Below are positions 16,300 through 43,589 of a DNA stretch of 64,000 nucleotides, one piece after another; positions within the stretch are counted from its first letter, which is position 1, and every line of letters begins with the position of its first letter. The stretch is taken from contig NZ_FNQB01000006.1 of assembly GCF_900107455.1 (NCBI RefSeq), positions 124,001-188,000 of the forward strand, read 5' to 3'. The notes under the pieces are model-generated. The model saw nothing but the letters and a program-made list of their open reading frames with translations. It searched no databases and had not been told where the DNA came from. The position numbers were made by a program, and so were the translations under genes. Source of the DNA: Asanoa ishikariensis (lineage in GTDB: Bacteria > Actinomycetota > Actinomycetes > Mycobacteriales > Micromonosporaceae).

Positions 16300-16668
16300 T
16301 CAGCGCTCCGCCCTCCCCCGGCGCAGGCGGACCGATACGTCGGCGAACTCGTGGGGAATCGGTGCGTGGGGCTTGTGCACGGTGACCGTCGCGGTGCTGA
16401 CCCGCTCGTCGTCGAGGCAGACGTCGAGCAGCCGGTCGGCGAGCGTCTCGATCAGGTCGACGGGCTCGCCGGTGATCACCTTGACCAGCCGGCCGGCCAG
16501 CACGCCGTAGTCGACCGTCTTGGTCAGGTCGTCGTCACGGGCGGCGGCGCTCAGGTCGAGCTCGAGCACCACGTCGACGAGGAAGTCCTGACCCTCGGCG
16601 CGTTCGGTCGCCAGCACGCCGTGCCAACCCCGGGCCCTTAACCCTTTGAGCGTGATCCGGTCGGTCAT
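16300..16668 (-). CDS. folB: Dihydroneopterin aldolase
   Basis: A 122-residue enzyme that cleaves dihydroneopterin to the 6-hydroxymethyl pterin used by FolK. Visible are ITLKGLRARGWHGVLATER, with the family GxHG-like region, and the C-terminal KPHAPIPHEFADVSV. The start ATG at 16668 is overlapped by the stop of a 26-codon reading frame in the upstream 77-bp repeat, so the usual ATGA coupling is kept even though a duplication separates it from folP. Confidence 0.92.
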   Translation of the reverse strand: MTDRITLKGLRARGWHGVLATERAEGQDFLVDVVLELDLSAAARDDDLTKTVDYGVLAGRLVKVITGEPVDLIETLADRLLDVCLDDERVSTATVTVHKPHAPIPHEFADVSVRLRRGRAER

Positions 16669-16822
16669 GACGGGTCTCCACTTCGTGGTGACCCGCCCTG
16701 CCCGGGCGGGCTCTGCTGATGATGCCCTCGCCAAGGCTCGGTCATGACGGGTCTCCACTTCGTGGTGACCCGCCCTGCCCGGGCGGGCTCTGCTGATGAT
16801 GTCCTCGCCAAGGCTCGGTCAT
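16661..16822 (-). repeat. 77-bp tandem duplication between folP and folB, keeping coupled mini-reading-frames
   Basis: Two copies (16661-16737 and 16738-16814) differ at one base, and a third copy begins at 16815. Each copy holds the hairpin GGGTCTCCACTTCGTGGTGACCC and a GC-rich palindrome around CCCGGGC. Read on the minus strand, each also holds a 26-codon frame starting MTEPWRGHHQQSPPG (16742-16822 and 16665-16745). The folP stop, the first frame, the second frame and folB are joined by three successive ATGA overlaps. The single base difference is synonymous (GGA/GGG) in this frame. Confidence 0.85.
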
Positions 16823-17694
16823 GCGCTGTCCTCCTCGTACACCAGGCGGGGTCGCCCGCTGGCCTGCCACACGGCGATCGCGTCGGTGGTCTCCCGCACG
16901 TCGTGCACCCGCACGCCCCAGGCGCCGGCGGCGACCGCGAGCACGCTGGTCGCGACCGTTGCCGCTGTGCGCTGGTCGGTGGGGCGAGGTGTGCCGTCCG
17001 GCTCGGCCAACAGGCGGCCGAGGTAGGACTTGCGGCTGGCGCCGAAGAGCACGGGGTAGCCGAGGGCGATCAGCTCCGGCAGGCCCCTGGTGAGGGTCCA
17101 GTTGTGCTCGGCGCGCTTCGCGAAGCCCAGGCCGGGGTCGATGACGATCCGGTCGGCGGCCACCCCGGCCGCGAGCGCTTCGTCGACCCGCTGGCTCAGC
17201 TCGTCGCGTACCTCTTTGACCACGTCGTCGTAGTTGGCCAGGTCGGCCATCCGGCGGGAGTGGCCACGCCAGTGCATCAGCACCCAGGGGCAGCCGGCAC
17301 CGGCGACGACCTTGGCCATGTCGGGGTCGGCGAGGCCGCCGGAGACGTCGTTGACCACCGTGGCGCCGGCCTCCAGCGCGGCCGCGGCGACGCTGGCCCG
17401 GGTGGTGTCGATGCTCATGGTCACGCCCTGGTCGGCCAGCGCGCGGATGACCGGCAGGACCCGGGCCGCCTCGGTGTCCGGGTCGACCCGCTCGGCGCCC
17501 GGCCGGGTCGACTCGCCACCGACGTCGACCAGGTCCGCGCCGTCGCGATGCATGGCGATGCCGTGCGCGATCGCGGCCGCGAGACCACCGCCCGGGTCGG
17601 AGGAGAAGTATCGCCCGCCGTCCGAGAACGAGTCGGGCGTGACGTTGAGGACGCCCATCACGACCGGGTCGGGCGACCGCAGCAGATCGGTCAC
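16819..17694 (-). CDS. folP: Dihydropteroate synthase
   Basis: Condenses the FolK product with p-aminobenzoate; the target of sulfonamides. The product shows VVMGVLNVTPDSFSDGGRY, DLVDVGGESTRPGAERV, SIDTTRASVAAAALEAGATV, VNDVSGG, and DPGLGFAKRAEHNW with GASRKSYLG, covering the pterin and pABA sites of the TIM barrel. The start chosen is the GTG at 17694, giving 291 residues; upstream sequence in frame lacks conservation. Its ribosome binding site is weak. It is the first gene of folP-folB-folK-DUF3180. folE, which normally precedes it, is 15 kb away. Confidence 0.93.
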   Translation of the reverse strand: MTDLLRSPDPVVMGVLNVTPDSFSDGGRYFSSDPGGGLAAAIAHGIAMHRDGADLVDVGGESTRPGAERVDPDTEAARVLPVIRALADQGVTMSIDTTRASVAAAALEAGATVVNDVSGGLADPDMAKVVAGAGCPWVLMHWRGHSRRMADLANYDDVVKEVRDELSQRVDEALAAGVAADRIVIDPGLGFAKRAEHNWTLTRGLPELIALGYPVLFGASRKSYLGRLLAEPDGTPRPTDQRTAATVATSVLAVAAGAWGVRVHDVRETTDAIAVWQASGRPRLVYEEDSA

Positions 17695-18025
17695 CTGTAG
17701 ACCGTACCGAACAGCGTTCCGGCCCTGTCGTTCGAACTCGTGTGCCACATCGGCCACACCGGCCACGAGGGGCGCACCAGGCGCATTCTTCGTAGCTTGT
17801 TCGAAGCAGGGCTCCGCCGTACGCTTTGCAATTGCTAATGATTCCGGCGCCAAGACGGAGGAGACAGGCCGAAACCGGGACAAAACACCCGAGGATGAGA
17901 CACCGTTAGCGGTGAGCGCACAACATCCGGGCCGGCGGACAAGACGTACGACAAAACGTCACCCGAAGGCCTGACAATCACAGTGCCGCGGCTCCGCCGG
18001 CCGTCGGCACCGGGGAGGTTTTCCG
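17695..18025. promoter_or_regulatory. Divergent intergenic region, folP / secretion-like block
   Basis: 331 bp without a convincing gene. It should carry promoters for folP (leftward) and for the secretion-like operon (rightward). A locally AT-rich patch at 17824-17843 contains the palindrome GCAATTGC (17828-17835). GGGGAGG lies 9 nt before the ATG at 18026. No tRNA, integrase site or direct repeat marking an insertion boundary is visible. Confidence 0.4.
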
Positions 18026-18343
18026 ATGATCGCCACTGAGCTCGTCCAGCAGGCGTGGAGTGCGTCCGCGCACGCCGCGTCGGGCGTGCTCGCCCACGTC
18101 ATCGCGGGTGAGGCAGACCCGAAGGGCATCGACACATCAGGCATCGTCACCTTCTTCGCCAGCAAGGTGGCGCCGATTCTGCTTGCGGTGCTCGGCGTGA
18201 TCTTCATCGGCCGCGCGAGCAAGGGCGAGGTCTCCAAGGTCCTGACCAGCTCGGCCATCGCCATCGTCGGCCTCGCGTTCATCGCGGGCGCGGCGACTTT
18301 GTTCTTCGTCGGTGACTACCTGATCAAGCTGATCTTCGAATAG
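18026..18343 (+). CDS. Small two-helix membrane protein, VirB2/pilin-like
   Basis: A 105-residue protein. A weakly hydrophobic N-terminus is followed by two strong membrane helices (VAPILLAVLGVIFIGRA and SSAIAIVGLAFIAGAATLFF) joined by a short polar loop (SKGEVSKVLT). This two-helix layout, small size and position directly before VirB3-like and VirB4-like genes match VirB2/TrbC-type subunits of type IV secretion systems. No direct sequence signature proves it. It has a strong ribosome binding site (GGGGAGG), in line with high expression of a structural subunit. Confidence 0.5.
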   Translation: MIATELVQQAWSASAHAASGVLAHVIAGEADPKGIDTSGIVTFFASKVAPILLAVLGVIFIGRASKGEVSKVLTSSAIAIVGLAFIAGAATLFFVGDYLIKLIFE

Positions 18344-18358
18344 GCCGCGGAGCACGAG

Positions 18359-18721
18359 ATGCGGCTGCGCACCGATGACGACATCTACCGGGCTCGCCTG
18401 GTTTACCTGGGCCCGCCGGGATACACGCTTCCGATCCATCTGCCCTATGCGCAATATGGGCTGTTCATGCTGCTTGTGCCGCTCTATATCTTCATCCACT
18501 ACCTGTTCACGTTCAGCGTCGAGCTCTTCCCGGCCTGGGAGATCGCGCTCGCGATCGTGACGACCTCGTTCATCTTCCGCCACGTCGACCCCGACCGTCC
18601 CGCACGCGTGGTGATCCGCACGGCGCTCACCGACTGGCGCCGCACCCGCGAGCCCGCAGTCGAGCAGCGCGACCCCCGTCTGGTCGCGACCAAGATCAGG
18701 ATCCGCGAGGAGCTGGTATGA
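18359..18721 (+). CDS. VirB3/PrgI-like membrane protein
   Basis: A 120-residue protein with a polar N-terminus, two closely spaced membrane segments (QYGLFMLLVPLYIFIHYLF and ELFPAWEIALAIVTTSFIF) and a basic cytoplasmic C-terminus (RPARVVIRTALTDWRRTREP). This is the usual shape of VirB3, PrgI or TcpE proteins, which sit beside VirB4 in type IV secretion operons. The position between a VirB2-like and a VirB4-like gene supports this. Function is inferred mainly from context. Its stop overlaps the start of a 31-codon frame. Confidence 0.5.
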   Translation: MRLRTDDDIYRARLVYLGPPGYTLPIHLPYAQYGLFMLLVPLYIFIHYLFTFSVELFPAWEIALAIVTTSFIFRHVDPDRPARVVIRTALTDWRRTREPAVEQRDPRLVATKIRIREELV

Positions 18722-18813
18722 CCCGGCATCCGGAGCCCGTCCAGCAGATCAGCCGGCCGTCACCCCCTCGAAACCGAGGAGCGTTCGCGGAACGGAGCGA
18801 GGTCCTCGCATGA
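18718..18813 (+). CDS. Possible 31-residue coupled small protein
   Basis: A short frame starting MTRHPEPVQQISRPSPPRN. Its ATG overlaps the stop of the VirB3-like gene (ATGA, 18718-18721) and its stop overlaps the ATG of the VirB4-like gene (ATGA, 18810-18813). The product is Pro/Arg-rich and has no membrane segment. It may be a real microprotein, or simply a ribosome relay that couples translation of the flanking genes across the gap. Confidence 0.3.
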   Translation: MTRHPEPVQQISRPSPPRNRGAFAERSEVLA

Positions 18814-21800
18814 ATCGACCCGTCCCGCCGGAGTCCCGTCCGGCCGACACGCAGTCCGGAACCAGCGGTCACCGTCAGCGATCAACTGACTACCCTGCGA
18901 CGGATCTTGATGCCGCTGAGCTTGACGAGGAGCGGACGGACAACGAACTCGTGACCACTCCTGGTCACGGTTCGGTGGCGGTTTTCCAGGCGCCGGGGCC
19001 GGCCCGCTCCCGGCCGGCCGAGGAGCGCGGCCGCGCGGTGCCAGCCGGTCGCCGACCCGACGCCGACATCGACTCACCGTTCCTCGACCTCTTCGGTGGT
19101 GCCGCGCCGCCGCAGGCTGCTCCGCCGCAGGGTCCCCCGCCGCCGCAGGGCGGCGAACCCGCTGGCGGTCGGCACGCGCTGACCAATGGCAATGGCGCGG
19201 GGCCGACCGCCCCGCCGCGCGGCGCCGAGCCTGTTTACGGCGCTGATCCCGCGCTGACCGGCCACCTCGACGCCGTCGAGCCACCGCGGCGTGGTGCCGA
19301 CCCGCGCGGCGGCGACTCGCGTGGAACCGACCTGCGCGGTGCCGACCAGCGTGGAACCGATCGGCGTGGAACCGACCCGCGTGGAACCGACCAGCGCGGT
19401 GGCGACCCGCGTGGAACCGACCAGCGCGGTGGCGACCAGCGTGGAACCGACCAGCGCGATCCCGACCCGCGTGGAACCGACCCGCGTGGAACCGACCCGC
19501 GTGGAGCGGACCCGCGTGGAGCGGACCCGCGTGGAGCGGACCGGCGTGGAGCTGAGCCGCTTCGGGGTATCGAGGCTTCGCGGGGTGTCGAGTCGCTGGC
19601 GCCGAATGGGCCGTCGGTTGACCGGCAGCGCATTGTCAGCCGGGCCAACCGGGCGCCGGGCGAGACCGGCCGGGTCGACAACCGTGCCGGGCGGCGGGGC
19701 GAGCCCGCGCCGCATGCTGACGCCTATCTCGACCCTGGCTCCGAGATGTTGCCCGAGCCTCGGCCCGAGCCACGCCGCCGCAGCGAGCCGCCGACGGCCA
19801 GCCGGCTGGCGTCTCCGCAGCACCCGTCCCGGCCGCGGCGACCGGCCACGGGGCCCGCCTCCGGCGTACCCCCGATGCCCGCTGGTCAGGAACGTGCCGC
19901 CGAGGTCGCGCCGCGCTCGGAGCGCACGCCCGACCTGCCTGGCGCGCAGTTGCCGATCGTGCGCGAGCCGGCGCAGCCGCCGCGCCGCCGGGATAAGGGT
20001 CGCGAGCCGGCAAAGAAGCCGACCACGGTCAAGCCGCCGCAGATCAAGTTCGGCGACCGCGACCCGAGTATCGGCCTGGCAATCACCGAGATCGCCGGGC
20101 ACCTGACCTTCACTCCCAACACGGTGACCGCCTGGTACTGGCTGCCGGAGGTGCGCTGGGCGTTCCGGCCCGACGCCGAGCGCGAGGCGTTGCTGTCCGC
20201 GATCTCCGAGCAGTACGCGGGTCTCGCCGGCTTCCGCCTGCACCTGCGCCGCACCACCCGGCCGTTCCCGGCCGACGAGTGGGCCCGCACTGTCGACACC
20301 CACACGCCCTCGCCGCTGTCCAGCGTGCCGGGCGCGACGTCCTGGTCCGACCACCTGGTCGCGGCGCAGCGGCACCTGCTGTCGGTCAACCACGCCGAGG
20401 GCCAGACCTACCTGGGCGTCACGTTCGCGCGCCGGTCGCTCGGCAACAGCCTGTCCGAGCGGGTGCTGCGCACCTTCGGCCGCGGCGTCGCCGAGGGCGA
20501 GCGCCGCAAGCTGAGTCGCACGGTCGAGCAGTTCGACGAGGTGCTCGGCGCGTTCGGCATGCGCGGGCGGCGGGTCACGCCACACGAGCTTGAATGGCTG
20601 CTCTACCGCTCGGTCGCGCTGTGCATGGCGCCCCCGACCACGCTCTCGCCGGTGACCAACGGCCAGTGGGAACGCGGTGACCTGCTTGGGCTCACCGAGC
20701 AGATCGAGCGCTATCGCACGCCGTACGGGTCGACGGTCAAGCTCGTCAACCGGATGACCGGCGAGGAGCGGCACGTCGCCGTGCTGGCCGTCGGCCGGAT
20801 GGAGCCACTGGAGATCCCCGAGCGGCACGAGCCGTGGATGCACTTCCACGAGCGGCTGCCGTGGCCGATGGAGCTGTCGTCGCGGATCGACGTGCTCGGC
20901 TCGGGCGACTCGTTCCGCAACCTCGAGCACCGGCTCCGGATGATCCGGTCGCAGCAACTCGACTACGCCGAGCACGGCATCGACGCCCCGCCCGAGCTCG
21001 AGCGGCTGGCCAAGCGCGCGCTGGTGATCGGCGACGAGATGACCACCGGTCTGCCGGTCGAGTCGGCCCGCGCGCACGGCTGGCACCGCATCGCCGTCGG
21101 CGGCCGCACCCGCGACGAGTGCCTCGAGCGGGCTCGCCGGCTGATCCAGCTCTACTCCCGGGAACTGCGCATCTCGCTGCAGCACCCGAAGAACCAGGAC
21201 TGGCTGGCCCGCGAGTTCATCCCCGGCGAGCCGATCGCCAACACGGGCTACATCCGCCGGATGCCGGTCAAGCTGCTGGCGGCCGCGCTGCCGCAGGCGG
21301 CGTCCACGGTCGGCGACCGCCGCGGCGACCTGATCGGCCGCACCGCGGGCACCTGCCGCCGGCCGGTCTTCCTGGACCTGCACTTCCCGATGGAGGTACG
21401 CGAGCGCTCCGGCCTGGCGGTCTTCGTAGCCGAGCCCGGCGGTGGCAAGTCGACGCTGCTGGGTGCACTCGGCTACCTGGCGGCCCGGCGCGGCGTCCAG
21501 GTCACCCTGCTCGACCCGTCGGGCCCGCTGGCCCGGCTGTGCGCGATGCCGGAACTCCGGCCGTTCTCCCGGGTGCTCAACCTGACGGGTTCGGAGGCCG
21601 GCACGCTGGCGCCGTACTCGCTGATTCCCACGCCCTTGCGCACGGAGTTCTCACTGGGCGCGCCGGGTGACCGGGAGTACGAGATCGCGGTCTCCAACTC
21701 GCGAGCCGAGCGCCGGATGCTGGTCCAGGACATCTGTCAGATGCTGGTCCCGCCGCAGGTGGCCCGCCAGGCTTCCACGGCGACGCTGTTCCGGCACGCG

Positions 21801-22604
21801 GTGCGCCAGGTCCCGGCCGAGGAGACCTCGACGCTGGACGACATCGTCGCCTGCCTGGCCGGCATGGACGACGACGATGGCAAGGAACTGGCCAACCTGC
21901 TGCTGGACACGGCCGAAATGCCACTCGCGCTGCTGTTCTTCGGCCGCCCCCCAGAGCACCTGCTCGGCGCGGACGCGGCCCTGACGGTCATCACGATGGC
22001 CGGCCTGCGCCTACCGGACCTGAAGATCGAACGCGAGTACTGGTCAGCCGAGGAATCGTTGGCGCTGCCCATGCTGCACACGGCCCACCGCCTGGCGGTC
22101 CGGCGCTGCTACGGCGGCTCGATGTCATCGCGGAAAATGGTCGGCCTGGACGAAGCGCACTTCATGGAGGGCTGGCGTTCGGGCCGCTCGTTCCTGGTGC
22201 GCCTGGCCCGAGACTCCCGCAAGTGGAACCTGGCGGCCCTGGTGGCGTCGCAGAACCCACGCGACATCCTGGGCCTGGACGTCCAGAACCTCGTGTCGAC
22301 GGTGTTCGTGGGCCGGATCGCGGAAGACCAGGAAATCGCGTCGGAAGCGCTACGCCTGCTGCGGGTCCCGGTGAACGACGGCTACGAGGCCACCCTCGCC
22401 AGCCTGTCCAACGTGGACACGGCATCATCGGCCCGGCTAGGTTTCCGCGAGTTCGTCATGCGCGACGTAGACGGCCGGGTCCAAAAGATCCGAGTCGACG
22501 TCTCGTACGTCGAAGGCCTGCTGGACCACCTGGACACCACCCCGGCGGTGGCGGCGTCGACGCCGTCCCTCCTCCCGCCGGCCCTTGCAGACCTGGAGGA
22601 GTAG
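18810..22604 (+). CDS. VirB4-like secretion ATPase with long repeat-rich N-terminal extension
   Basis: A 1264-residue protein. Residues 1 to about 400 are disordered and Pro/Arg/Asp-rich, including 17 tandem five-residue repeats of the form D-x-R-G-x at residues 164-248. The rest resembles VirB4/TraC-type ATPases: Walker A EPGGGKST (K880), a bacterial-type Walker B VGLDEAHF (D1114, E1115), then ASQNPRDIL. Such ATPases power assembly and substrate transfer in type IV secretion. Family VirB4 proteins are usually about 600-850 residues; the N-terminal extension is extra. The ATG overlaps the preceding 31-codon frame. Confidence 0.75.
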   Translation: MNRPVPPESRPADTQSGTSGHRQRSTDYPATDLDAAELDEERTDNELVTTPGHGSVAVFQAPGPARSRPAEERGRAVPAGRRPDADIDSPFLDLFGGAAPPQAAPPQGPPPPQGGEPAGGRHALTNGNGAGPTAPPRGAEPVYGADPALTGHLDAVEPPRRGADPRGGDSRGTDLRGADQRGTDRRGTDPRGTDQRGGDPRGTDQRGGDQRGTDQRDPDPRGTDPRGTDPRGADPRGADPRGADRRGAEPLRGIEASRGVESLAPNGPSVDRQRIVSRANRAPGETGRVDNRAGRRGEPAPHADAYLDPGSEMLPEPRPEPRRRSEPPTASRLASPQHPSRPRRPATGPASGVPPMPAGQERAAEVAPRSERTPDLPGAQLPIVREPAQPPRRRDKGREPAKKPTTVKPPQIKFGDRDPSIGLAITEIAGHLTFTPNTVTAWYWLPEVRWAFRPDAEREALLSAISEQYAGLAGFRLHLRRTTRPFPADEWARTVDTHTPSPLSSVPGATSWSDHLVAAQRHLLSVNHAEGQTYLGVTFARRSLGNSLSERVLRTFGRGVAEGERRKLSRTVEQFDEVLGAFGMRGRRVTPHELEWLLYRSVALCMAPPTTLSPVTNGQWERGDLLGLTEQIERYRTPYGSTVKLVNRMTGEERHVAVLAVGRMEPLEIPERHEPWMHFHERLPWPMELSSRIDVLGSGDSFRNLEHRLRMIRSQQLDYAEHGIDAPPELERLAKRALVIGDEMTTGLPVESARAHGWHRIAVGGRTRDECLERARRLIQLYSRELRISLQHPKNQDWLAREFIPGEPIANTGYIRRMPVKLLAAALPQAASTVGDRRGDLIGRTAGTCRRPVFLDLHFPMEVRERSGLAVFVAEPGGGKSTLLGALGYLAARRGVQVTLLDPSGPLARLCAMPELRPFSRVLNLTGSEAGTLAPYSLIPTPLRTEFSLGAPGDREYEIAVSNSRAERRMLVQDICQMLVPPQVARQASTATLFRHAVRQVPAEETSTLDDIVACLAGMDDDDGKELANLLLDTAEMPLALLFFGRPPEHLLGADAALTVITMAGLRLPDLKIEREYWSAEESLALPMLHTAHRLAVRRCYGGSMSSRKMVGLDEAHFMEGWRSGRSFLVRLARDSRKWNLAALVASQNPRDILGLDVQNLVSTVFVGRIAEDQEIASEALRLLRVPVNDGYEATLASLSNVDTASSARLGFREFVMRDVDGRVQKIRVDVSYVEGLLDHLDTTPAVAASTPSLLPPALADLEE
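19299..19553 (+). repeat. 15-bp tandem coding repeat (17 units) in the VirB4-like gene
   Basis: Seventeen in-frame 15-bp units encode D-x-R-G-x pentads (DPRGT, DQRGG, DPRGA and similar). Several neighbouring units are identical or nearly identical at DNA level (for example three DPRGA units near 19501-19540), a sign of recent slippage, so the copy number may vary between strains. Confidence 0.85.
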
Positions 22605-24512
22605 ATGGCTCGGGCGCGAGCACGGGTAGTCTCTCTGGTCCTCACCCTGCTGGTGGCGGCCGTCGCCACCATCAGCTGGCCGGCCTTGGGCGCAACCGCC
22701 GCCCCGCCAACTAAGGCACCCGCTGACGTCTGCACAGTCGACGAGTGGGAGGCGAACTTCCGTGCCTGCGTCAGCAAGTTGCCGGAAGTCAGCGCAGACC
22801 GCCTGACCTGCCTCAATGCCCCGAATCCAAGCAACCCTGACGCGGGTCTGGCGGGTTGGTTCGCGAGTCGACCGGAAGGTTCGGCACGCTCGGGCGTCGT
22901 CGGCATCTACAGCGACTACGGCTACGCCGGTTATAGCTATTCCACCTACGACATTGAAGGCGGCTGCGCCTCAACTGTCCTGCATCCCGACTACCGTTTC
23001 TTGACGACGGTCGCTAACGGCGAGTTCATGATCGCGACTGCGGTCGTAGGCGCTTCCAACGCCGTGCGCGAGCGCGCATGGAATCCGGCGACGATGTGGG
23101 GCTGGGCCGACCCCCTGGTAGACCAGGCAACGAAGGCGGTTTATACGAAGGTGTTCACCGCCTTCGGGGGCATCACACTGGCGATCGTTGGTTTGTACCT
23201 CATTTGGCGGTCGCGTCAGTCCGACATGAGCAACGCCATGACCACCACTGGCTGGGCGCTCCTCGTCATGGTCGCTGTGACTGCGCTGGCTGCATGGCCG
23301 GTGAAATCAGCGAACATCGCCGATGACACGCTCGTCAGCGCACTCGGCGTTGTGCACGACGCCGTCGGTCCACGCCCGGATGATGGCCAATGCCGCCTCG
23401 GCGATCCCAACGCCTGCAAGGACAACCGGCCGCCGGCCGTGCGGGCGAGTGACACCGTCACCGAGACCATGCTCTATCGCAACTGGCTTCGAGGTGTTCT
23501 CGGGTCTGCTGACAGCGTGACTGCCAAAAAATACGGTCAGGCGCTTTACGACGCCAAATCGTTCCGCTGGGACGAAGCCGAAAAGCTCCGTCAAAATCCT
23601 GGCACTCGCGACCAGATGCTCGCCGAAAAAAAGACTCAGTGGATGAAGGTCGCCGAGCAGATTAAGACCGAAGACCCCGAGGCGTACGACTACCTCCAGG
23701 GCGAACGCGACATGGATCGGGTCGGCGCTGGCTTCATCGCGCTGCTCGCGGCGTTCCTCTTCGCCTTGTTCGACCTCACCGCGTCGCTCCTCGTGTTGCT
23801 CGGCTTCTTAATCTTCCGCTGGGCAGTCATCGCTGCACCGATCTTGGGCACAGTGGGTCTGATGCGTCCGGCTAGCGCCGGCATTCGGCGGTTGGCGAAC
23901 GCGGTAGTCGCCGCGGTCTTCAACATCGCGATCTTCGGCACCGGGGCCGCGATCTACCTGTTCGCCGTCGACTTGATCATGAATACTCCGACGCTACCGG
24001 GCTGGCTCCAGGTAGTCCTCGTGTGGCTTTGCGGCGTGGTGGGCTGGCTACTGCTCCGCCCATACCGGCGAATCACACAACTCGGCGGCAAGGATGGCAC
24101 TGCCGCGATCACGTCGGCCGGCTCCTGGCATCGGCGATTCTTCCGCGACATGCGTGAGGCCGCGAAACTGGACGTCGTCGAGCCTGGTGGCACCTCCGAA
24201 CCACACGTTGGCAAGCGTCGCGGGGTCCTTGCCGAAGGAACATCGATGCGACCGGAAGCTCGGCACGAGGATCCGAGCCACGGCGCACCCAGCGGTGGAG
24301 AGCAGAATCGGCCGGAAGAGCGGTCCGACGCCCCAACCGCGACCCCGCCGCGAAGTCCTGCCGTGCGGCCGGGCCGCCGCCAACCCGAGCGATGGGTGGA
24401 GCCGGACGTTCCGCAAACCGCGCCGGCCAGCTACGCGATCTATCGGCCGGAATCCACCAAGGACGCCCCACCCGCGCCGACATCGCCACGGGTCCGATCC
24501 GAGGCGAGGTGA
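22605..24512 (+). CDS. VirB6/TrbL-like polytopic membrane protein
   Basis: A 635-residue protein with a signal peptide (VVSLVLTLLVAAVATISW) and an extracytoplasmic region of about 140 residues that contains several cysteines. At least six membrane segments lie between residues about 180 and 490 (VFTAFGGITLAIVGLYLIW, ALLVMVAVTALAAWPV, GFIALLAAFLFALF, VVLVWLCGVVGWLLL). A disordered cytoplasmic tail follows. This matches VirB6/TrbL-type channel subunits. GGAGGAG within the VirB4-like 3' end precedes its ATG. The gene and the next four are visibly less GC-rich at third positions than the folate genes. Confidence 0.55.
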   Translation: MARARARVVSLVLTLLVAAVATISWPALGATAAPPTKAPADVCTVDEWEANFRACVSKLPEVSADRLTCLNAPNPSNPDAGLAGWFASRPEGSARSGVVGIYSDYGYAGYSYSTYDIEGGCASTVLHPDYRFLTTVANGEFMIATAVVGASNAVRERAWNPATMWGWADPLVDQATKAVYTKVFTAFGGITLAIVGLYLIWRSRQSDMSNAMTTTGWALLVMVAVTALAAWPVKSANIADDTLVSALGVVHDAVGPRPDDGQCRLGDPNACKDNRPPAVRASDTVTETMLYRNWLRGVLGSADSVTAKKYGQALYDAKSFRWDEAEKLRQNPGTRDQMLAEKKTQWMKVAEQIKTEDPEAYDYLQGERDMDRVGAGFIALLAAFLFALFDLTASLLVLLGFLIFRWAVIAAPILGTVGLMRPASAGIRRLANAVVAAVFNIAIFGTGAAIYLFAVDLIMNTPTLPGWLQVVLVWLCGVVGWLLLRPYRRITQLGGKDGTAAITSAGSWHRRFFRDMREAAKLDVVEPGGTSEPHVGKRRGVLAEGTSMRPEARHEDPSHGAPSGGEQNRPEERSDAPTATPPRSPAVRPGRRQPERWVEPDVPQTAPASYAIYRPESTKDAPPAPTSPRVRSEAR

Positions 24513-24515
24513 GAC

Positions 24516-25085
24516 GTGCGGCGGGTGTTCCAACTCCTCGGTTCCTCGGCGCTGCGGTCACGACTCGGAGTCGCCGTGGTCTTGGCGATCGTGGTCTTCG
24601 GTGTGGTCGGCATCGCCCGAGTCGTTTCCGGTCCTGACGGTCGGTCCGCAGGGGTTTTCCCCGCAGTCGACATTTCCAGCACGGCGACCACCGCCGATCC
24701 GGGGGCGGCCGACGACGGTGTGGTCGAACCGCGACCGGCCACCTCCACCGTGGTGGATCCCGGGCCCAGCCTGAGTCCGGGCGCTCCGGAACCTGCGGAA
24801 ATCGCGAAAGCGTTCGCGACCTCCTGGCTGGACCGCACGGCGAAGGTAGCGGACTGGTACGCGGCGCTGGTTCCGCACGTCACTGCCGATCTCGCTGCCA
24901 AGCTCAAAGGAGTGGACCCGGTCGTCGTACCGGCGGAGCGTCTGACAGGTCCACCAACGGTGGTGCCACGGGGTACGGGTTTGGTAGAGGTCTCCTATCC
25001 GGTCGACTCCGGAACGCTGCTGCTCCGGGTCGTCGTCGCAGAGGGACGGTGGCTGGTGGACGGCGTTGACTGGGAGCGCGCATGA
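24516..25085 (+). CDS. Membrane-anchored VirB8/TcpC-like protein
   Basis: A 189-residue protein with one N-terminal membrane anchor (LGVAVVLAIVVFGVVGIARV), a Thr/Ser/Pro linker, and a C-terminal domain of about 100 residues outside the membrane (AFATSWLDRTAKVADWYAAL, ending LLLRVVVAEGRWLVDGVDW). The end pattern is typical of NTF2-like folds, which VirB8 and TcpC adopt. Starts at a GTG 3 nt after the preceding stop and overlaps the next gene by 4 nt. The role as assembly factor of the secretion channel is inferred from fold shape and context. Confidence 0.5.
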   Translation: MRRVFQLLGSSALRSRLGVAVVLAIVVFGVVGIARVVSGPDGRSAGVFPAVDISSTATTADPGAADDGVVEPRPATSTVVDPGPSLSPGAPEPAEIAKAFATSWLDRTAKVADWYAALVPHVTADLAAKLKGVDPVVVPAERLTGPPTVVPRGTGLVEVSYPVDSGTLLLRVVVAEGRWLVDGVDWERA

Positions 25086-26224
25086 CGCTGACCGGCGAAC
25101 TGGACGAGGCGATCCAGCGACGCCGCCCGAAGCGGGTGGTTGCCCTGGTCGCTGTCACCGCCACACTCGCATTGCTCTGCTGCGGTGGCGGCACCGCCGC
25201 CTTCTTCTTGGACGGCCTGAGCAACGACAACAACCAGGCCCTTTCGTCCTACGGCTGCGGCGCCGCCGGCCCACTGCCTGACGACGGTGATCTCCCACGG
25301 GTCTCTGGCTACAGCGAACCCCAGCTGCGGAACGCGGCGACGATCATCAATGTCGGCGCGGACCTCAAGGTGCCGCCAAAAGGTTGGGTCATCGCGATCG
25401 CGACCGCGATGCAGGAATCGTCGCTGAACAACCTGGGCAACCTCGGCTCACGCAATGATCACGATTCGCTCGGGCTCTTCCAGCAACGTCCGAGCCAAGG
25501 TTGGGGCACGCCGAGGCAGGTCCAGGACCCGGTCTACGCCAGCCGGAAGTTCTACCAGAAGCTCGTGAAGGTCCGCGGCTGGGAGCAGATGTCTCTGACC
25601 GACGCCGCCCAGGCAGTGCAGCGCAGCGCGTTCCCGGACGCCTACGCCAAGCATGAACCTGACGCTGCGGAGATCGTGAACATGCTGGCCGACGGTGCGG
25701 CGCGAGCGGTCGGAGCCAACTCGACATTGACCTGCGCCGCGATGGGCGACGTGGCAGCGTCAGGTTGGACCACCCCCGTCAAGGCCGGCGTCGTCTCAGG
25801 GTTCCGGACCTCATCGCGCCCCAGCCATCAGGGTGTCGACCTCGGCGCCTCCCGCGGCGACGACATCCTCGCCGCAGCCGCCGGCACGGTCATCGTGTCG
25901 CGGTGCGACAACGACCAAACACCGCCGTTCCGTTGCGACCGCGACGGTTCGCCGTCGACGCCCGGTTGCGGCTGGTATGTCGATATAATGCATGCCGACG
26001 AGGTCATGACCCGCTACTGTCACATGCTTTACCGCCCCAAGGTCCGAGTAGGGCAAGCGGTGGCCGCCGGCCAGCCGCTCGGCATCGTCGGCACGAGCGG
26101 CCACTCGTCGGGGCCCCACCTACACTTCGAGGTGCACCTGAATGGCGACCGCAGCTCAGCGGGTGCGACTGAGCCTTTGAAGTGGATGCGGGAAAAGGGC
26201 GCGCCGCTAGGCACCGGCGCATAA
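25082..26224 (+). CDS. Bifunctional cell-wall hydrolase: transglycosylase-like domain plus M23 peptidase
   Basis: A 380-residue exported protein with one N-terminal membrane segment. Residues about 75-200 resemble a lysozyme-like transglycosylase (AIATAMQESSLNNLGNLG, GLFQQRPSQGWGT). Residues about 225-375 are an M23/LytM zinc peptidase with HQGVDLGA, a YCHM segment and GPHLHFEVH, the three usual metal and catalytic motifs. It can plausibly open the peptidoglycan for a secretion channel, as VirB1 and Tcp cell-wall hydrolases do. It overlaps the VirB8-like gene by 4 nt. Confidence 0.8.
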   Translation: MTLTGELDEAIQRRRPKRVVALVAVTATLALLCCGGGTAAFFLDGLSNDNNQALSSYGCGAAGPLPDDGDLPRVSGYSEPQLRNAATIINVGADLKVPPKGWVIAIATAMQESSLNNLGNLGSRNDHDSLGLFQQRPSQGWGTPRQVQDPVYASRKFYQKLVKVRGWEQMSLTDAAQAVQRSAFPDAYAKHEPDAAEIVNMLADGAARAVGANSTLTCAAMGDVAASGWTTPVKAGVVSGFRTSSRPSHQGVDLGASRGDDILAAAAGTVIVSRCDNDQTPPFRCDRDGSPSTPGCGWYVDIMHADEVMTRYCHMLYRPKVRVGQAVAAGQPLGIVGTSGHSSGPHLHFEVHLNGDRSSAGATEPLKWMREKGAPLGTGA

Positions 26225-26260
26225 CTGCCGGACCTTCGGCGCGCGGAGCGGAGATAACTG

Positions 26261-26863
26261 ATGAGCCGCGAGCCGATGCCAGACCCGTTCGCTGACCAGC
26301 CCGACTGGGCGCCCCGGCCACCCCGCTCAATCGTGCCCACACCGGCTGCGAGCGTTGAGGATCTGCGCGGGCGACGTCTGGTAGTCGGGTTTCCGGGCGC
26401 CGGTTGGCGTGGCGATCTACGTGCCGATGATCGGATCGTGCAAGGCAGCCGCACCTACGTCCCGGCGATCCCAGAGCAGGAGTGGTACCGCGCCGAGTCC
26501 GAACAGATCGAGGTCTTCGCCCCGCTGGTACCGATCGACCGGGTCTGGGTCGAGACGTTGGGCGCTCCTGGGAAGGCCGGGGGCCATCGGGACGTGATCT
26601 CCCGGCTTGTCTCGCTCGACTTCCCGGCCACCCGCGTGGCGGTGCCAGCAGTCGATGTGGACGCTCTCTCTGGCCGACGAGTCGTTCAGGTGGTCGACGG
26701 GGTCGAGCGCCGAGATCTTCGTGCGGTCACCGAAGTACACACCAATGCAGATGGCGACATCTGCGTTCGGCTGGCGACAGAGCTCGAATGGTATCGCTGG
26801 GCGTGGAGCGGACAAGCACCGAAGACCGTCGAGGTCCCTGTGCATCTGCTCTGGATCGAATAG
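26261..26863 (+). CDS. Unknown protein with two tandem copies of a ~67-residue domain
   Basis: No known family recognised. The 200-residue soluble protein contains two related halves: residues 32-98 (VEDLRGRRLVVG, WRGDLRA, EQEWYRAES, VPIDRVWVE) and 133-200 (VDALSGRRVVQV, ERRDLRA, ELEWYRWAW, VPVHLLWIE). The match extends across L-GRR-V, R-DLRA, E-EWYR and the hydrophobic-W-(V/I)-E end. It follows the secretion genes by 36 nt with its own ribosome binding site, so it could be an accessory or immunity-like factor, but this is only context. Confidence 0.5.
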   Translation: MSREPMPDPFADQPDWAPRPPRSIVPTPAASVEDLRGRRLVVGFPGAGWRGDLRADDRIVQGSRTYVPAIPEQEWYRAESEQIEVFAPLVPIDRVWVETLGAPGKAGGHRDVISRLVSLDFPATRVAVPAVDVDALSGRRVVQVVDGVERRDLRAVTEVHTNADGDICVRLATELEWYRWAWSGQAPKTVEVPVHLLWIE

Positions 26864-27358
26864 TTAGCCGAGCAGTTGCGCACCGCAGACTTTCCACCCG
26901 TCGCCTTCGTCCACGACCCTGAACTGCCAATCTTGCGTGGACCTTTCGGCACCCGCGATTGTTCGAGTGAGTTGCGTAGCCACAGTTCGATCGGAACCAG
27001 CCTCGGTTACCGCGAGCGGACCCCACGACACATCGATCGTGATTCCAAAGCCCTCTTCCCGATGGTCCACATCTGCCCTGAAGGCCCGGATGGGCTCCAG
27101 CCCACGGTCTTCCTTGCATTCGAGCGACTCGGCACGAACGTCGTTACGTTGCACGAGGAACTCCCGCAGGTAGTTATCGACCGTCACGTCTGGCTCTCCG
27201 CGGTCGATGGCGGTGGCTTCGTCGTAGAGGTTGATTCCTACTCCTACTCCGCCCAGGCAGAGCAGGGTCAGCACCCCCCCGATCACCATCAGGAGGAGGC
27301 GCAGCGGGCGGACGCTTCGCTCGCCCGGGGTCGTGCGTGCGGAGGATGCGGCGGCCAC
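26864..27358 (-). CDS. Membrane-anchored protein with NTF2-like external domain
   Basis: A 164-residue protein. A basic N-terminus is followed by one membrane segment (LLLMVIGGVLTLLCLGGVGV) and an extracytoplasmic domain beginning PDVTVDNYLREFLVQRNDV and ending DWQFRVVDEGDGWKVCGAQL, with two cysteines that may pair. The end pattern is common in NTF2-like domains, including those of actinobacterial anchored proteins of unknown role. Its stop codon is directly adjacent to the stop of the converging gene. It diverges from the FtsK-like gene, with 86 bp between them. Confidence 0.55.
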   Translation of the reverse strand: MAAASSARTTPGERSVRPLRLLLMVIGGVLTLLCLGGVGVGINLYDEATAIDRGEPDVTVDNYLREFLVQRNDVRAESLECKEDRGLEPIRAFRADVDHREEGFGITIDVSWGPLAVTEAGSDRTVATQLTRTIAGAERSTQDWQFRVVDEGDGWKVCGAQLLG

Positions 27359-27444
27359 ATGACGAGGTTAGCCGTACGGCACGCGGAGGGGAGCGTGGGA
27401 CATTCTGCCGCGCTGCTATACCGTCACTCCGGGAGGTGAGCGGT

Positions 27445-30009
27445 GTGTCCAGGACGCAGGCGCGAGCCTTAGAAGCCGCCGCGCTGCACCGCCAAGCTGC
27501 TGCGGTCGTTGATGCCGCCGAGGTGGCGCTTGTTGGTGTTCGGGCGCCTGTCGCTGACGAGCGCGCACAGCATGACCTGGCCGAACGGCTGCGGGCCGCG
27601 GCCGGTGTGCTCACGCCCGGCTGGCTTGGTGGGCAGCTCGACGCGCGGTTCGAAGACACTCCGCTCGGTGGTCCCCGGGTGCCTTCCTTCGTGCGGATCG
27701 GCACCGCTCAGCCGCTCGACGACGCACGCTTTCCCGCGATCGTTCCGCTGCTCGGCACCGGCCACCTGACGATCGACGCCGATGCTCGCGACCCCCGGGT
27801 CGCCGGGCTGATCAGGGCCACCCTGCTCCGGTTGCTCGCCGCCGCGCCGCCCGGGTCCTTGCTCGTACGCGCCGTCGATGCCGCCGGTGGCGGGATGCTT
27901 TTCGCACCCTTCGCCGCGCTCGCCGACGCCGGGTTGATGCCTCCGCCGGCCACCGATCGCACCGCTCTGCGGGCCGTGCTCGCCGAGGCCGAGCAGTGGG
28001 TGCGCCCCGCCCGCCCTACCGCCGTCCGGCACACCCGGCGCGAACGTACCCTCCTCGTGGTCATCGCGAGTTTGCCCGAACTCACCGAGACCGCCGATCT
28101 GACCCGCATCTCCGCGTTGGCTCAGGCGGGGCCGGACGCTGGTCTGCACCTGATCGTCGCCGGTTGGCCGCCGCCGCCGCTGACCCTGGAGACCACCCAG
28201 CAGCCCATGCCGCTGGCCACCCGGATCGCGTTGCGCAACCCCCATGCCCTGGTCAGCGACCCGCCCGGCGCCAACTTCGCGACGTCGCCGCACGTCGGGC
28301 TCAACGCTCCCGTGTTCCTCGATGACGACCCGCCGCCGCACCTGTTCGAGCGGGTTTGTGCCGAGCTCGGTGCTCGGTTCGCCGCCAGCTCGCGCCTCAA
28401 CCTGCGGGACCTGTTGCCCGAGCAGGAGAGCGACACCTGGACCGACGAGTCCGCGTCCGGCCTGGCCACGGTGGTCGGCCACGACGGCGACCGGCCCGTA
28501 AACCTCCAGTTCAACGATCTGACTCCACACTGGATGATCGGCGGTCGGTCCGGTGCGGGCAAGACCGCGTTCCTGATCAACGTGCTGTACGGGTTGGCCA
28601 CCCGCTACGGCCCCGACGAGATGACGCTCTACCTGCTCGACTTCAAAGAGGGCATCTCGTTCGCCGAGTTCGTGCCGACCGAGCGCGACCGCACCTGGCT
28701 GCCGCACGCCCGCGCCGTCGGGGTCGAGTCCGACCGGGAGTACGGCCTTGCCGTGTTGCGTGACCTCGACGCCGAGATGGGTCGCCGCTCGGTCGCCTAC
28801 AAGCGGGCCGGCGTCACCCGGTTCACCGACCTGCGCGAGAGCCAGCCGCTGCCGCGGATCGTCTGCGTGATCGACGAGTTCCAGGTACTGCTGGCGGGCG
28901 CCGACCGGGCGGCCACCGAGGCGGTCACGCTGCTCGAGTCACTGGCCCGCAAGGGTCGCTCGTACGGCATCCATCTGGTCCTGGCCAGCCAGACCGTGCT
29001 CGGCGTCGAAGCGCTCTACGCCAAGCGCGACTCGATCTTCGGCCAGTTCCCGGTGCGGGTCGCCCTCCCGGGCGGCGGCGACGTGCTGGAGCCGACCAAC
29101 GACGCGGCCGCCGGCCTCCCGCTCGGCGCCGCGGTCGTCAACACGGCCGGTGGCCTCGGCGGTCCGCGCGGCGCGACCCGCGGGCACGAGCGGGTGATCC
29201 GTTTCCCGGACCCGCACGGCGACCGGTCCGCGCTGGTCAAACTGCGACACGCGCTCTGGGAACGGCGCACCGCCGACGCCGCGCCGCCCAAGGTCTTCGC
29301 CGGGTACGCGCACCAGCACCTCAACGACGACCCCACCTTCCGGGCGGCCCTCGCCGGCCGGATCACCCGTCCCGCCGCGCTGGTCGGCCGCCACATCGAC
29401 GTGTCGCTCAGCACCGCGGCCTTCCCGCTCGACACCGCGCCCGGCCGGCATCTCGCGGTGATCGGCCCGAGCGCGGCCGGCGCCGGGGTGCTCGACGCCG
29501 CAGCCCGCAGCGTCGCCGCGCACCACCCGCCGCGTACCGCCCGATTCGTGATCGCATCTCTGGTCGCCGAGGGCGACGACGTCGCCGCGGACCTGGCCCG
29601 CGACCTCGCCGAGCGGCAGGAGGTCGAGATGGTCACCGCGGCCGAGCTCGCCGACACGCTGACCATCGACCGCCCCGGCTACATGGTGGTGTTCGGAATG
29701 GACGCGATGGCCGGCGGCGCGCTGCCGCCCGACCGGCTCCGCCTGGTGTTGCGCACCGGCCCCGGCCGCGGCGTGCACCTGCTCTCCTGGTGGCGCGGCC
29801 TGCGACGGTTCACCGACGAGGTCGGCCCGGCCGCCCGCGAAGACGTCGCCGGCCTGGTGTTCCTCAACGTTCCCGGTGCCGACGTGAGCCTGCTGCTCAA
29901 CCGCCCGGTCGACTGGCAGCCGCGAGACAACCGGGCGCTGCTGCACGACCGGCACACCGACCGCACCTCCGTGATCGTGCCGTTCGTGCGCTCCGAGGCC
30001 GACCGATGA
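27445..30009 (+). CDS. FtsK/SpoIIIE-type ATPase
   Basis: An 854-residue cytoplasmic protein. The central ATPase domain has Walker A GGRSGAGKT (from residue 366) and Walker B IVCVIDEF (about 472-479), then ARKGRSYGIHLVLASQT, as in FtsK/SpoIIIE and EccC proteins. A second, C-terminal ATPase-like domain has IGPSAAGAG in place of Walker A and lacks the lysine, so it is probably inactive. There is no membrane segment. Start is the GTG at 27445, 8 nt after GGAGG. It could pump DNA or proteins, as a coupling ATPase for the upstream VirB-like genes or for its own small partner. Confidence 0.8.
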   Translation: MSRTQARALEAAALHRQAAAVVDAAEVALVGVRAPVADERAQHDLAERLRAAAGVLTPGWLGGQLDARFEDTPLGGPRVPSFVRIGTAQPLDDARFPAIVPLLGTGHLTIDADARDPRVAGLIRATLLRLLAAAPPGSLLVRAVDAAGGGMLFAPFAALADAGLMPPPATDRTALRAVLAEAEQWVRPARPTAVRHTRRERTLLVVIASLPELTETADLTRISALAQAGPDAGLHLIVAGWPPPPLTLETTQQPMPLATRIALRNPHALVSDPPGANFATSPHVGLNAPVFLDDDPPPHLFERVCAELGARFAASSRLNLRDLLPEQESDTWTDESASGLATVVGHDGDRPVNLQFNDLTPHWMIGGRSGAGKTAFLINVLYGLATRYGPDEMTLYLLDFKEGISFAEFVPTERDRTWLPHARAVGVESDREYGLAVLRDLDAEMGRRSVAYKRAGVTRFTDLRESQPLPRIVCVIDEFQVLLAGADRAATEAVTLLESLARKGRSYGIHLVLASQTVLGVEALYAKRDSIFGQFPVRVALPGGGDVLEPTNDAAAGLPLGAAVVNTAGGLGGPRGATRGHERVIRFPDPHGDRSALVKLRHALWERRTADAAPPKVFAGYAHQHLNDDPTFRAALAGRITRPAALVGRHIDVSLSTAAFPLDTAPGRHLAVIGPSAAGAGVLDAAARSVAAHHPPRTARFVIASLVAEGDDVAADLARDLAERQEVEMVTAAELADTLTIDRPGYMVVFGMDAMAGGALPPDRLRLVLRTGPGRGVHLLSWWRGLRRFTDEVGPAAREDVAGLVFLNVPGADVSLLLNRPVDWQPRDNRALLHDRHTDRTSVIVPFVRSEADR

Positions 30010-30794
30010 CCACCGACCAGCCGACCAACGGAACCCCGTACAGCGTGCCCGACCAGCCGACACCCACCCCGTTGCCGGCGCACCCGAACCCGGTGCCGCA
30101 ACAGCCGTCCTACGGCCACTCGCACCGGCCGGACGACACCGACCCGGGCACGGCCTGGTCGGACTACTGCGCCGCCGCCCAACGGCTCGACGCGGTGCGC
30201 CGGGGTGCGGCCACCGCGGCCGGCGAGCAGGCCCAGGCGACCCGGGCGGCGCGCGAGGAGCTCTCCGCGGTCCGCGCCCGGCTGGTGCCGCAACAGGCGA
30301 GGTTGCGCGAGGCCGGCGTACCCGATGTCGATCTTCACCCGACCCGCGCGGACGCCGAGGCGGCCGGCCGGACCATCGGCGGCGATCCGGCGGGTGTGTT
30401 GACCGCGTTGCACCAGGCCCGATCGACCGCCGACCGCGCCGACGCCGCCCTGCTCGGGGTGCCCGGAGCCGCGCTCGGCGTGACCGGCCCCCGCACGCCG
30501 GTCCGCAGTTGGGTGCGCAACATGCTCGTATACGGGCCGTTCGCCGCTGCGGTCCTGGTGGTCCAGATCGCGCTGCTGGTCACCGCCCAGGGCACACCGA
30601 TGACGATCTACGCACTCGGCTGTGGGCTCGCACTGCCGCTGGCCGCACTCGGGTTCGCCTGGGTCACGATCGGCGCCGCGTTCCCCGCCCCGGCCGGCGG
30701 CAAGGTCGACCGCACCCTCCCGATCGGCGCCGTGACCTGCTTCGCACCCGTCCTGATCACCCTCATCGGCCAGGCCGTCCTGGCCGTCACCTAG
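30006..30794 (+). CDS. Coiled-coil membrane protein of the FtsK-like operon
   Basis: No named family recognised. The 262-residue protein has a Pro/Thr-rich N-terminus (about 45 residues), a helical region likely to form a coiled coil (AQRLDAVRRGAATAAGEQA to about residue 120), then three C-terminal membrane segments (VYGPFAAAVLVVQIALLVT, IYALGCGLALPLAALGFAWV, VLITLIGQAVLAV). It overlaps the ATPase gene by 4 nt, so the two are co-translated and may form a complex at the membrane. Confidence 0.6.
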   Translation: MTTDQPTNGTPYSVPDQPTPTPLPAHPNPVPQQPSYGHSHRPDDTDPGTAWSDYCAAAQRLDAVRRGAATAAGEQAQATRAAREELSAVRARLVPQQARLREAGVPDVDLHPTRADAEAAGRTIGGDPAGVLTALHQARSTADRADAALLGVPGAALGVTGPRTPVRSWVRNMLVYGPFAAAVLVVQIALLVTAQGTPMTIYALGCGLALPLAALGFAWVTIGAAFPAPAGGKVDRTLPIGAVTCFAPVLITLIGQAVLAVT

Positions 30795-30803
30795 GCGGTC
30801 CGC

Positions 30804-31064
30804 ATGCCGAACGTCGAAGAGGTCAAGCTCAACGTCGCCGCCTCGGTCGACCAGACCCAACGCGCCCTGCAGACCCTGCGCGGCGTGACGGACGCGTTCG
30901 ACGAGGCCCTGACCCGCCTCCGCTTCACCGCGATCGGGTCAGCGCACCCGTCCATCATGGACGCGATCGCGAACCTGGAGCAGGCTCGGTCACGGCTCGA
31001 CGAAGCGCAGTCGCTCGCCTCGAACGCGCTCAGCTCCGCCGACAACTTCCGCAGCATGGTCTAA
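30804..31064 (+). CDS. 86-residue helical protein (ESX-like size, no WXG motif)
   Basis: A short, entirely helical protein (VEEVKLNVAASVDQTQRALQ, AIANLEQARSRLDEAQSLAS) with heptad-like spacing and a short turn around SAHPS in the middle. Size and two-helix layout resemble WXG100 secreted proteins, but WXG is absent; the turn region reads RFTAIGSAHPS. It is the last gene of a three-gene unit after an FtsK-type ATPase and a membrane protein, so it may be a substrate or a structural partner. Confidence 0.55.
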   Translation: MPNVEEVKLNVAASVDQTQRALQTLRGVTDAFDEALTRLRFTAIGSAHPSIMDAIANLEQARSRLDEAQSLASNALSSADNFRSMV

Positions 31065-32642: not shown

Positions 32643-33242
32643 TCACCCGATGATCAGGGCCATCGCTTCGGATCGGCTCTTGGCGTCGCTCTGGAAGATG
32701 CCGCGGACCGCGGACGTCACCGTCTTGGCGCCGTCCTTCTGGATGCCGCGCATCGCCATGCAGAGGTGTTCGCATTCCAGCACCGCGATCACTCCGCGGG
32801 GCTCGAGCTTTTGCATCAGCAGGTCGGCTATCTGGGTCGTGAGCCGCTCCTGGACCTGCGGGCGGCGGGCGTAGATCTCGACGATGCGGGCCAGCTTGGA
32901 CAGGCCGGTTATCCGGCCGCTCGGGCCCGGGATGTAGCCGATGTGCGCCACGCCCTTGAACGGGAGCAGGTGGTGTTCGCAGACGCTCATGACCTCGATG
33001 TCGCGGACCAGCACCAGTTCCTGGTGCGCCGCGTCGAAGGTCGTGTTGAGCACCTGGGCCGGGTCGACCCGGAGGCCCGCGAAGAGTTCCGCGTAGGCGC
33101 GGGCGACTCGCAGCGGGGTCTTGGTCAGGCCGTCGCGGTCCGGGTCTTCGCCGATCGCGATCAGGATCTCGCGGACGGCCTTCTCGATCCGGCCCAGGTC
33201 GACGGCCTCTTCAACCGGGCGGCCCGCGAGCTTGCCGTCCAC
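32643..33242 (-). CDS. folE: GTP cyclohydrolase I
   Basis: Opens the folate pathway by converting GTP to dihydroneopterin triphosphate. The product has [15 protein letters not shown], the zinc and active-site region [40 protein letters not shown], and CEHLCM with the second zinc cysteine. The coordinates use the GTG at 33242 (199 residues), but reading is open and protein-like upstream to a CTG at 33305 that overlaps the ftsH stop (CTGA) and adds 21 residues ([20 protein letters not shown]). That CTG may be the true start. It follows ftsH in one transcript. Confidence 0.92.
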
Positions 33243-43440: not shown

Positions 43441-43589
43441 CGATCATCCTCCATCACGGGGGGAGCCGGGACGAGGGCACGCTATCGGTCTCGCGGGTTA
43501 TCCACATGACCCCTTTTCGGCCATCCACACCCGCCGCGATTCCCTACCATGAGCGACGCCCACGTAGCTCAGCGAGACGGGAGGGCTCG

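Follow-up and report, generated by a model that had tools for sequence, protein, structure and literature searches.

Monoderm conjugative type IV secretion systems (T4SSs) of the pCW3 Tcp, pIP501, pCF10 and Tn916 types combine a TcpF-kind VirB4 ATPase with VirB6, an NTF2-like VirB8 and a membrane-anchored hydrolase of two domains. The same set was found in the locus described here, a seven-gene operon in a 64,000-nucleotide stretch of the Asanoa ishikariensis genome (9.09 Mb); the whole stretch, G000:C7:124001-188000 with 71% G+C, is called the window below. The window's system differs from the conjugative ones in that three tested relaxase families and the VirD4 C-domain are missing from its genome and in that it is fixed in a family, the Micromonosporaceae. 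MOBless T4SSs and the T4SS of Patescibacteria are also VirB4-based, chromosomal and without a relaxase, but published examples come mostly from proteobacteria and ultrasmall epibionts (PMC3158045, PMC12102498, both in the parts available). Another comparison is the chromosomal cmdABCDEF operon (SCO4126-4131) of Streptomyces coelicolor, which encodes a VirB4-like ATPase and five membrane proteins and was linked by its authors to the SLP2 plasmid-transfer genes (PMC2782261, available in part).

The operon occupies 18026-26863 on the plus strand. Its genes, in the order VirB2-like, VirB3-like, VirB4, VirB6, VirB8, hydrolase and a 200-aa protein (u200), are separated by 15, 88, 0, 3, -4 and 36 bases. 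The VirB4 identity proposed in the first-pass annotation, with Walker A at K880, was borne out: the 1264-aa protein (18810..22604, +) matches AAA_10 (7.3e-23) and TcpF (1.7e-19), and its Walker B is VGLDEAH. It is the single AAA_10 match over the cut-off in its genome, where the VirB4 profile PF03135 had no match, and phmmer found no match for it in the PDB at E 0.01. The VirB4 core lies behind an N-terminal extension of about 400 aa that is rich in Pro, Arg and Gly and looks disordered; 15-base tandem repeats at 19259-19588 encode its tandem 5-residue unit (RGTDQ/RGADP type). The polytopic VirB6-like translocon protein (22605..24512, +, 635 aa) and the VirB8-like protein (24516..25085, +, 189 aa, a transmembrane helix and an NTF2-like domain) were weak in profile searches of the PDB by sequence (TrwI, E 0.9; TcpC, E 0.042). 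Both passed structure comparison, which re-examined Foldseek's best-ranked chains only, and the NTF2-like fold of VirB8 had TraM of pIP501 as its best match. The gene read earlier as a VirB1-like transglycosylase/M23 hydrolase encodes a membrane-anchored wall hydrolase (25082..26224, +, 380 aa) with a muramidase-like domain (8b2e, 1.6e-11) and an M23 endopeptidase (PF01551, 3.6e-23). The identities of VirB4, VirB6, VirB8 and the hydrolase are supported.

The two small proteins at the start of the operon, each with two predicted transmembrane helices, fit a monoderm T4SS in place, size and helix number but had no sequence match. The VirB2-like protein (18026..18343, +, 105 aa) is named from position and topology only; it had no TrbC profile match, gave 26% in hhalign and failed the sequence test against a TrbC-like set. 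The VirB3-like protein (18359..18721, +, 120 aa) is named from position, topology and conservation and had no sequence match to TcpE or a TcpE-like set. The last gene encodes u200 (26261..26863, +), a conserved cytosolic protein with two similar halves (BLAST of the first against the second half, E 6e-4). A weak u200 homologue (E 7e-4) follows the hydrolase in locus L131.

A VirB4 of this family was present in 113/121 Micromonosporaceae genomes (our own included), in 102 of the 107 near-complete ones and in 41/44 genera. Identity across the family is 72-98%, excluding the own copy, second copies and fragments, and it is 96% in other genomes of the own, Asanoa-type genus. Eight genomes gave no match: G005, G063 and G094 (69, 77 and 87% complete), G038, where a contig breaks right at VirB3-VirB2 beside folP (L174), three genomes of genus g23, and G085. 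Gene order was compared in 75 named loci, those longer than 12 kb among the best 80 of the 265 found, a sample biased to close relatives in which many absences are contig ends. The order is conserved across these loci, with VirB4, VirB6, VirB8, the hydrolase and u200 in all 75 and folP, VirB2 and VirB3 each in 66. Median identity is 90% for VirB3 (in the 66 loci where it was found) and for VirB4, comparable to that of FtsH (87%) and FolE (82%). The ratio of nonsynonymous to synonymous substitution rates (dN/dS) against two Asanoa species is 0.04-0.19 for the seven operon genes (0.04-0.05 for u200). The two halves of the operon seem to differ in their synonymous rate of evolution: dS against the same species is about 1.2-1.9 for VirB6-u200 (22605-26863) and 0.22-0.50 for VirB2-VirB4, a 2-4-fold difference, and third-position GC is 0.73-0.82 versus 0.86-0.90.

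The own genome, which is 99.96% complete, had no match to the relaxase families PF03432, PF08751 and PF03389, other relaxase classes lying outside this search. It also had no match to the VirD4/TraG C-domain PF12696, a search that an FtsK-type (TcpA-like) coupling protein would escape. No integrase was seen in the 10 flanking proteins scanned, and no repeats flank the block, so the claim that relaxase, integrase and att repeats are absent stands within these limits. Across 22 genomes, PF03432 occurred in 6, PF08751 in 6 and PF12696 in 17; therefore, such genes occur in relatives as accessory genes. The first-pass annotation had suggested a fixed secretion or DNA-transfer machine of the lineage, and this was supported, since an adjoining relaxase and integrase with patchy presence was not what we found. 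We are highly confident that the operon is a fixed T4SS without a relaxase.

VirB4 does descend from mobile systems. Among 56 VirB4s in a quick tree, the core rows, 21 of 21, made up a single clade (Shimodaira-Hasegawa-like approximate likelihood ratio test, SH-aLRT, 99). A careful tree of 34 rows again united the core (9/9, support 100/99) and gave it as sister group the second copies of G106 and G095 (100/100), with plasmid and other systems outside; the tool flagged several long branches. These second copies look mobile, with small genes, a membrane FtsK protein, DUF2637 and GntR/UTRA or HTH regulators around them. Their existence favors an ordinary integrative conjugative element (ICE) or prophage remnant present by chance in a single genome, but, unless strains within a species differ in the operon, this explanation is refuted by the family-wide conservation, with shared site and order, purifying selection, no flanking repeats and no relaxase of the tested families, and we consider it highly improbable.

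Linear plasmids of Streptomyces, Nonomuraea and Rhodococcus have the order B2-B3-B4-B6-B8-hydrolase of the window, and their VirB4s are 31-37% identical to the window's over 95-97% of the query. They differ in being extrachromosomal and in having an FtsK-type protein and often ParA nearby, and pRHL3 is typed MOBP. The Streptomyces and Nonomuraea relatives are typed as non-mobilizable in PLSDB, and the stretches examined (one plasmid complete, three in part) have no annotated relaxase. Its absence may, therefore, be an old trait of this branch. In another related locus, L131 (15948-19662), HSP90-type ATPase/sacsin-like and DNA methylase-like proteins with a defence-like look stand behind the T4SS operon. 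The plasmid relatives and the nearest mobile-looking copies both pair the operon with an FtsK-type protein that has predicted transmembrane helices, with no annotated relaxase, which would suit a chromosomal DNA-exchange machine carrying out relaxase-free transfer between hyphae or strains with an FtsK-type motor. However, the core locus lacks this membrane FtsK; the FtsK encoded there is soluble, with only 23-28% similarity to the membrane form over about 190 residues. In addition, transfer of the SLP2 plasmid was unchanged in cmd mutants (PMC2782261, in the available text), and the literature search found no relevant paper on Micromonospora recombination. We consider DNA export or exchange between cells an unlikely job for the operon.

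The soluble FtsK belongs to a second unit, separate from the T4SS operon. This unit consists of the FtsK/EccC-like ATPase (27445..30009, +, 854 aa from the start chosen here; PF01580 7.5e-22, EccCa 6.5e-24, EccC 4nh0 7.8e-18; no transmembrane helix predicted), a 262-aa protein with predicted transmembrane helices in its C-terminal part (30006..30794, +, with a 4-base overlap at the FtsK stop) and an 86-aa helical protein (30804..31064, +) that is weakly DUF6244-like (0.023, below the cut-off) and was found in only 9/75 long loci. FtsK itself was found in 70/75 and is under purifying selection (dN/dS 0.10-0.12 against the two Asanoa species). Its EccC-like family is present in 107/121 genomes, often in several copies, and lies within 20 kb of VirB4 in 51/63 genomes compared (63 of the 121, taken from among the rows listed). 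The gene remains beside folP in G074, which has no family VirB4. The FtsK-type module described next to the operon is, therefore, real but is a unit of its own from a multicopy family that in some genomes lies away from the T4SS, and the idea of FtsK as an obligate partner was dropped on these grounds. The FtsK/EccC-like protein may be a coupling ATPase or a mere neighbour.

These data bear on a dedicated protein exporter, in which an EccC-like ATPase or another receptor would pick effectors or toxins for the medium or for neighbour cells. T4SSs without a relaxase are commonly read in this way (PMC3158045, available part), and the linkage of the EccC-like ATPase to VirB4 and the selection on it agree with such a role, as does a soluble FtsK-like protein, similar to the window's, near the T4SS of L146. 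Yet no recognisable effector gene lies in the block, the genome has no VirD4-type receptor (PF12696), and the FtsK module is independent of the operon. We regard protein secretion to the outside as rather unlikely.

The block was also compared with type VII (ESX) loci. The EccC-like soluble ATPase and the 86-aa helical protein are its only type VII-like pieces; EccB, EccD, MycP and WXG100 were not found with the EccC ATPase in the block. A second, larger FtsK/SpoIIIE protein of 1268 aa is encoded some 12 kb beyond the right end of the block (43506-47312; PF01580 5.5e-78 in two stretches). It resembles a full EccC, and a type VII locus may lie there. EccC-like FtsK paralogues also lie about 4 kb or less from a second folP gene in G013, G014, G069 and G085, echoing the proximity of FtsK and folP in the window.

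The explanation that we favor, with a probability of about one half, is that a monoderm-type T4SS from a plasmid or ICE conjugation system was kept as a chromosomal system of the Micromonosporaceae and likely carries DNA or protein through the membranes or septa of hyphae. The ancestor of the family would have taken the channel from such a mobile system, and it would have been chromosomal since. We infer how it would be assembled and what its job would be: VirB3, VirB6 and VirB8 would form a membrane translocon powered by VirB4, VirB2 would provide a short channel or stalk, the muramidase/M23 protein would open the wall locally, and the substrate may enter via an unlinked or EccC-like ATPase. 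The transport of DNA or protein would take place while the hyphae grow and sporulate, a role like that proposed for the distant cmd operon.

For cmd, the one operon with mutant data in the literature found, the available text of PMC2782261 reports that deletion caused aberrant branching, defective septation and actinorhodin overproduction, with 8% and 6% anucleate spores in mutants versus 0.1%. Expression rose with aerial growth, and the authors raised the possibility of a type IV-like channel. A transglycosylase gene next to cmd, tgdA (SCO4132), is likewise reported to influence differentiation and actinorhodin (PMC6585502, in part). The cmd operon is not mentioned in PMC4255298, and the part of PMC3482391 at hand contained nothing on this system. 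In all seven g70 genomes searched, a second kind of AAA_10 match was found, and in six loci its frames of about 480-560 aa are likely cmd counterparts. One likely cmd locus (L200) encodes proteins of 105 aa with two transmembrane helices, 283 with one, 446 with six, 517 with two and 499 with two, beside an SLT-NlpC protein; with Pfam, four of these five membrane proteins had no match and the fifth only TraG-D_C (0.025). L154 was rejected as a cmd locus because it is ICE-like, with a TraG protein. A single AAA_10 VirB4 per genome held for the five f1/f19 genomes tested but not for g70, which has further VirB4-type genes. The cmd system resembles the window's in being chromosomal, with a VirB4-type ATPase that carries AAA_10, membrane proteins (five in cmd) and an adjoining transglycosylase gene; its role is developmental. 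It differs in its ATPase of about 480 aa and its very distant sequence.

Several points weigh against the favored explanation. The putative cmd proteins had no BLAST match at E 0.01 to the window's proteins, VirB4 included, and CmdB-like proteins (about 480 aa) match the VirB4 of another family, f19, at 21-22% over some 360 residues. Since the kinship is so remote, the cmd function is carried over by analogy. The very weak sequence link is why we hold a developmental or septal role only tentatively, at somewhat short of even odds. Within genus g12, G085 has neither the family VirB4 nor any AAA_10 match over the cut-off, G099 has only a VirB4 fragment and G108 has a stop in VirB4, suggesting that the operon is not indispensable and can be lost. 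The operon lies away from folP in the five deeper genomes tested (G013, G014, G069, G004, G046), so it moved at least once or reached the folP site later. The missing relaxase alone is no proof against DNA transfer, because the plasmid relatives are also without an annotated one.

Chromosomal T4SSs were also found to be fixed in other lineages, whose family names are tentative here. Family f19, probably the Streptosporangiaceae of GTDB, has a different VirB4 in 118/120 genomes and in all 106 near-complete ones, 75-94% conserved; it forms a separate clade and is about 28-31% identical to the window's. Like the window's system, that of f19 is chromosomal and fixed, but it has TcpC (2.4e-13) and TcpE (4.4e-24) proteins, as well as a VirB2-like TrbC match under the cut-off (5.7e-4), a VirB6 matching TrbL (1.6e-8) and an SLT-NlpC hydrolase. 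The order TcpC-B2-TcpE-B4-B6-B8-NlpC is kept where the stretch allows, with VirB4 in 21/21 loci, VirB6 in 18, TcpC, VirB2, TcpE and VirB8 in 17 and NlpC in 16. A link of the f19 operon to typA was dropped, as TypA was found in only 2/21 further loci. In two f19 loci (L133, 12498-16979; L135, 5256-8024), the TcpE gene reads into a long tail (922-1493 aa in total) with a weak ParA/MinD-like P-loop match, which could reflect either a gene fusion or an error of gene calling.

Instead of the family VirB4, the three g23 genomes have a third type, whose copies are 71-87% alike and about 23% identical to the core. In the two longer loci, the hydrolase beside it is still 50-51% identical to the window's. 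The genes scanned nearby have housekeeping roles, among them hemD, hemB and those for a prolyl oligopeptidase and a SpoIIE-type phosphatase. A further VirB4 is common to two f22 genomes (96% alike), and AAA_10 was absent at E<=0.001 from 4/6 genomes of f2, presumably the Mycobacteriaceae. It is possible, though doubtful, that filamentous spore-forming actinobacterial lineages each domesticated a conjugation channel for development and swapped it several times: the fol-linked type in Micromonosporaceae, the TcpF type in the second family, the third type in g23 and cmd in Streptomyces.

The plus-strand block is bordered by minus-strand genes. On the left, folP (16819..17883, -) is divergent from the operon and adjoins it in the 66 loci given above; on the right stand folE (32643..33242, -), in 62/75 long loci, and ftsH (33302-35329, -), in 61/75. 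Between u200 and FtsK, a minus-strand gene missed by the first-pass annotation (26864..27358, -), convergent with the operon and divergent from FtsK, encodes a single-helix secreted protein that is Rv0361-like below the family cut-off (NF051431, 5.1e-7) and has matches in 80 loci. A 77-base tandem duplication (16661-16814, copies 99% identical) separates folP from the upstream part of folB and is relevant to where folB starts. Scanning the window with Rfam and for tRNAs gave no match.

The system had been called possibly undescribed. No family-wide description of a Micromonosporaceae T4SS was found in the literature searched, mostly outside subscription papers. The available parts of earlier reports do list one virB4 in M. 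lupini, surrounded by genes of unknown kind (PMC4182475), and note one conserved VirB4-like gene in Frankia (PMC2266912); the M. lupini locus (L072) carries this operon, and mutant phenotypes exist for the distantly related cmdABCDEF. The suggestion is, therefore, partly right: the new aspect is a relaxase-less monoderm T4SS fixed at the level of a family, and the channel is of a known kind.

T4SSs were seldom found in actinobacteria by a survey of 2011, which thought it improbable that low sequence similarity was to blame (PMC3158045, in the part available). Here, two large actinobacterial families each keep a near-core chromosomal T4SS. Roles of Gram-positive T4SSs other than DNA transfer are a long-standing question needing much more attention, according to the accessible part of a 2025 review (PMC12857230). 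The host genera are culturable, harmless and genetically tractable, leaving this question open to simple deletions, for which the cmd phenotype predicts specific defects, namely faulty septation and anucleate spores. If the repeated domestication is true, chromosomal DNA or morphogenetic proteins would pass through the channel in sporulating hyphae and so cross their septa or the envelope.

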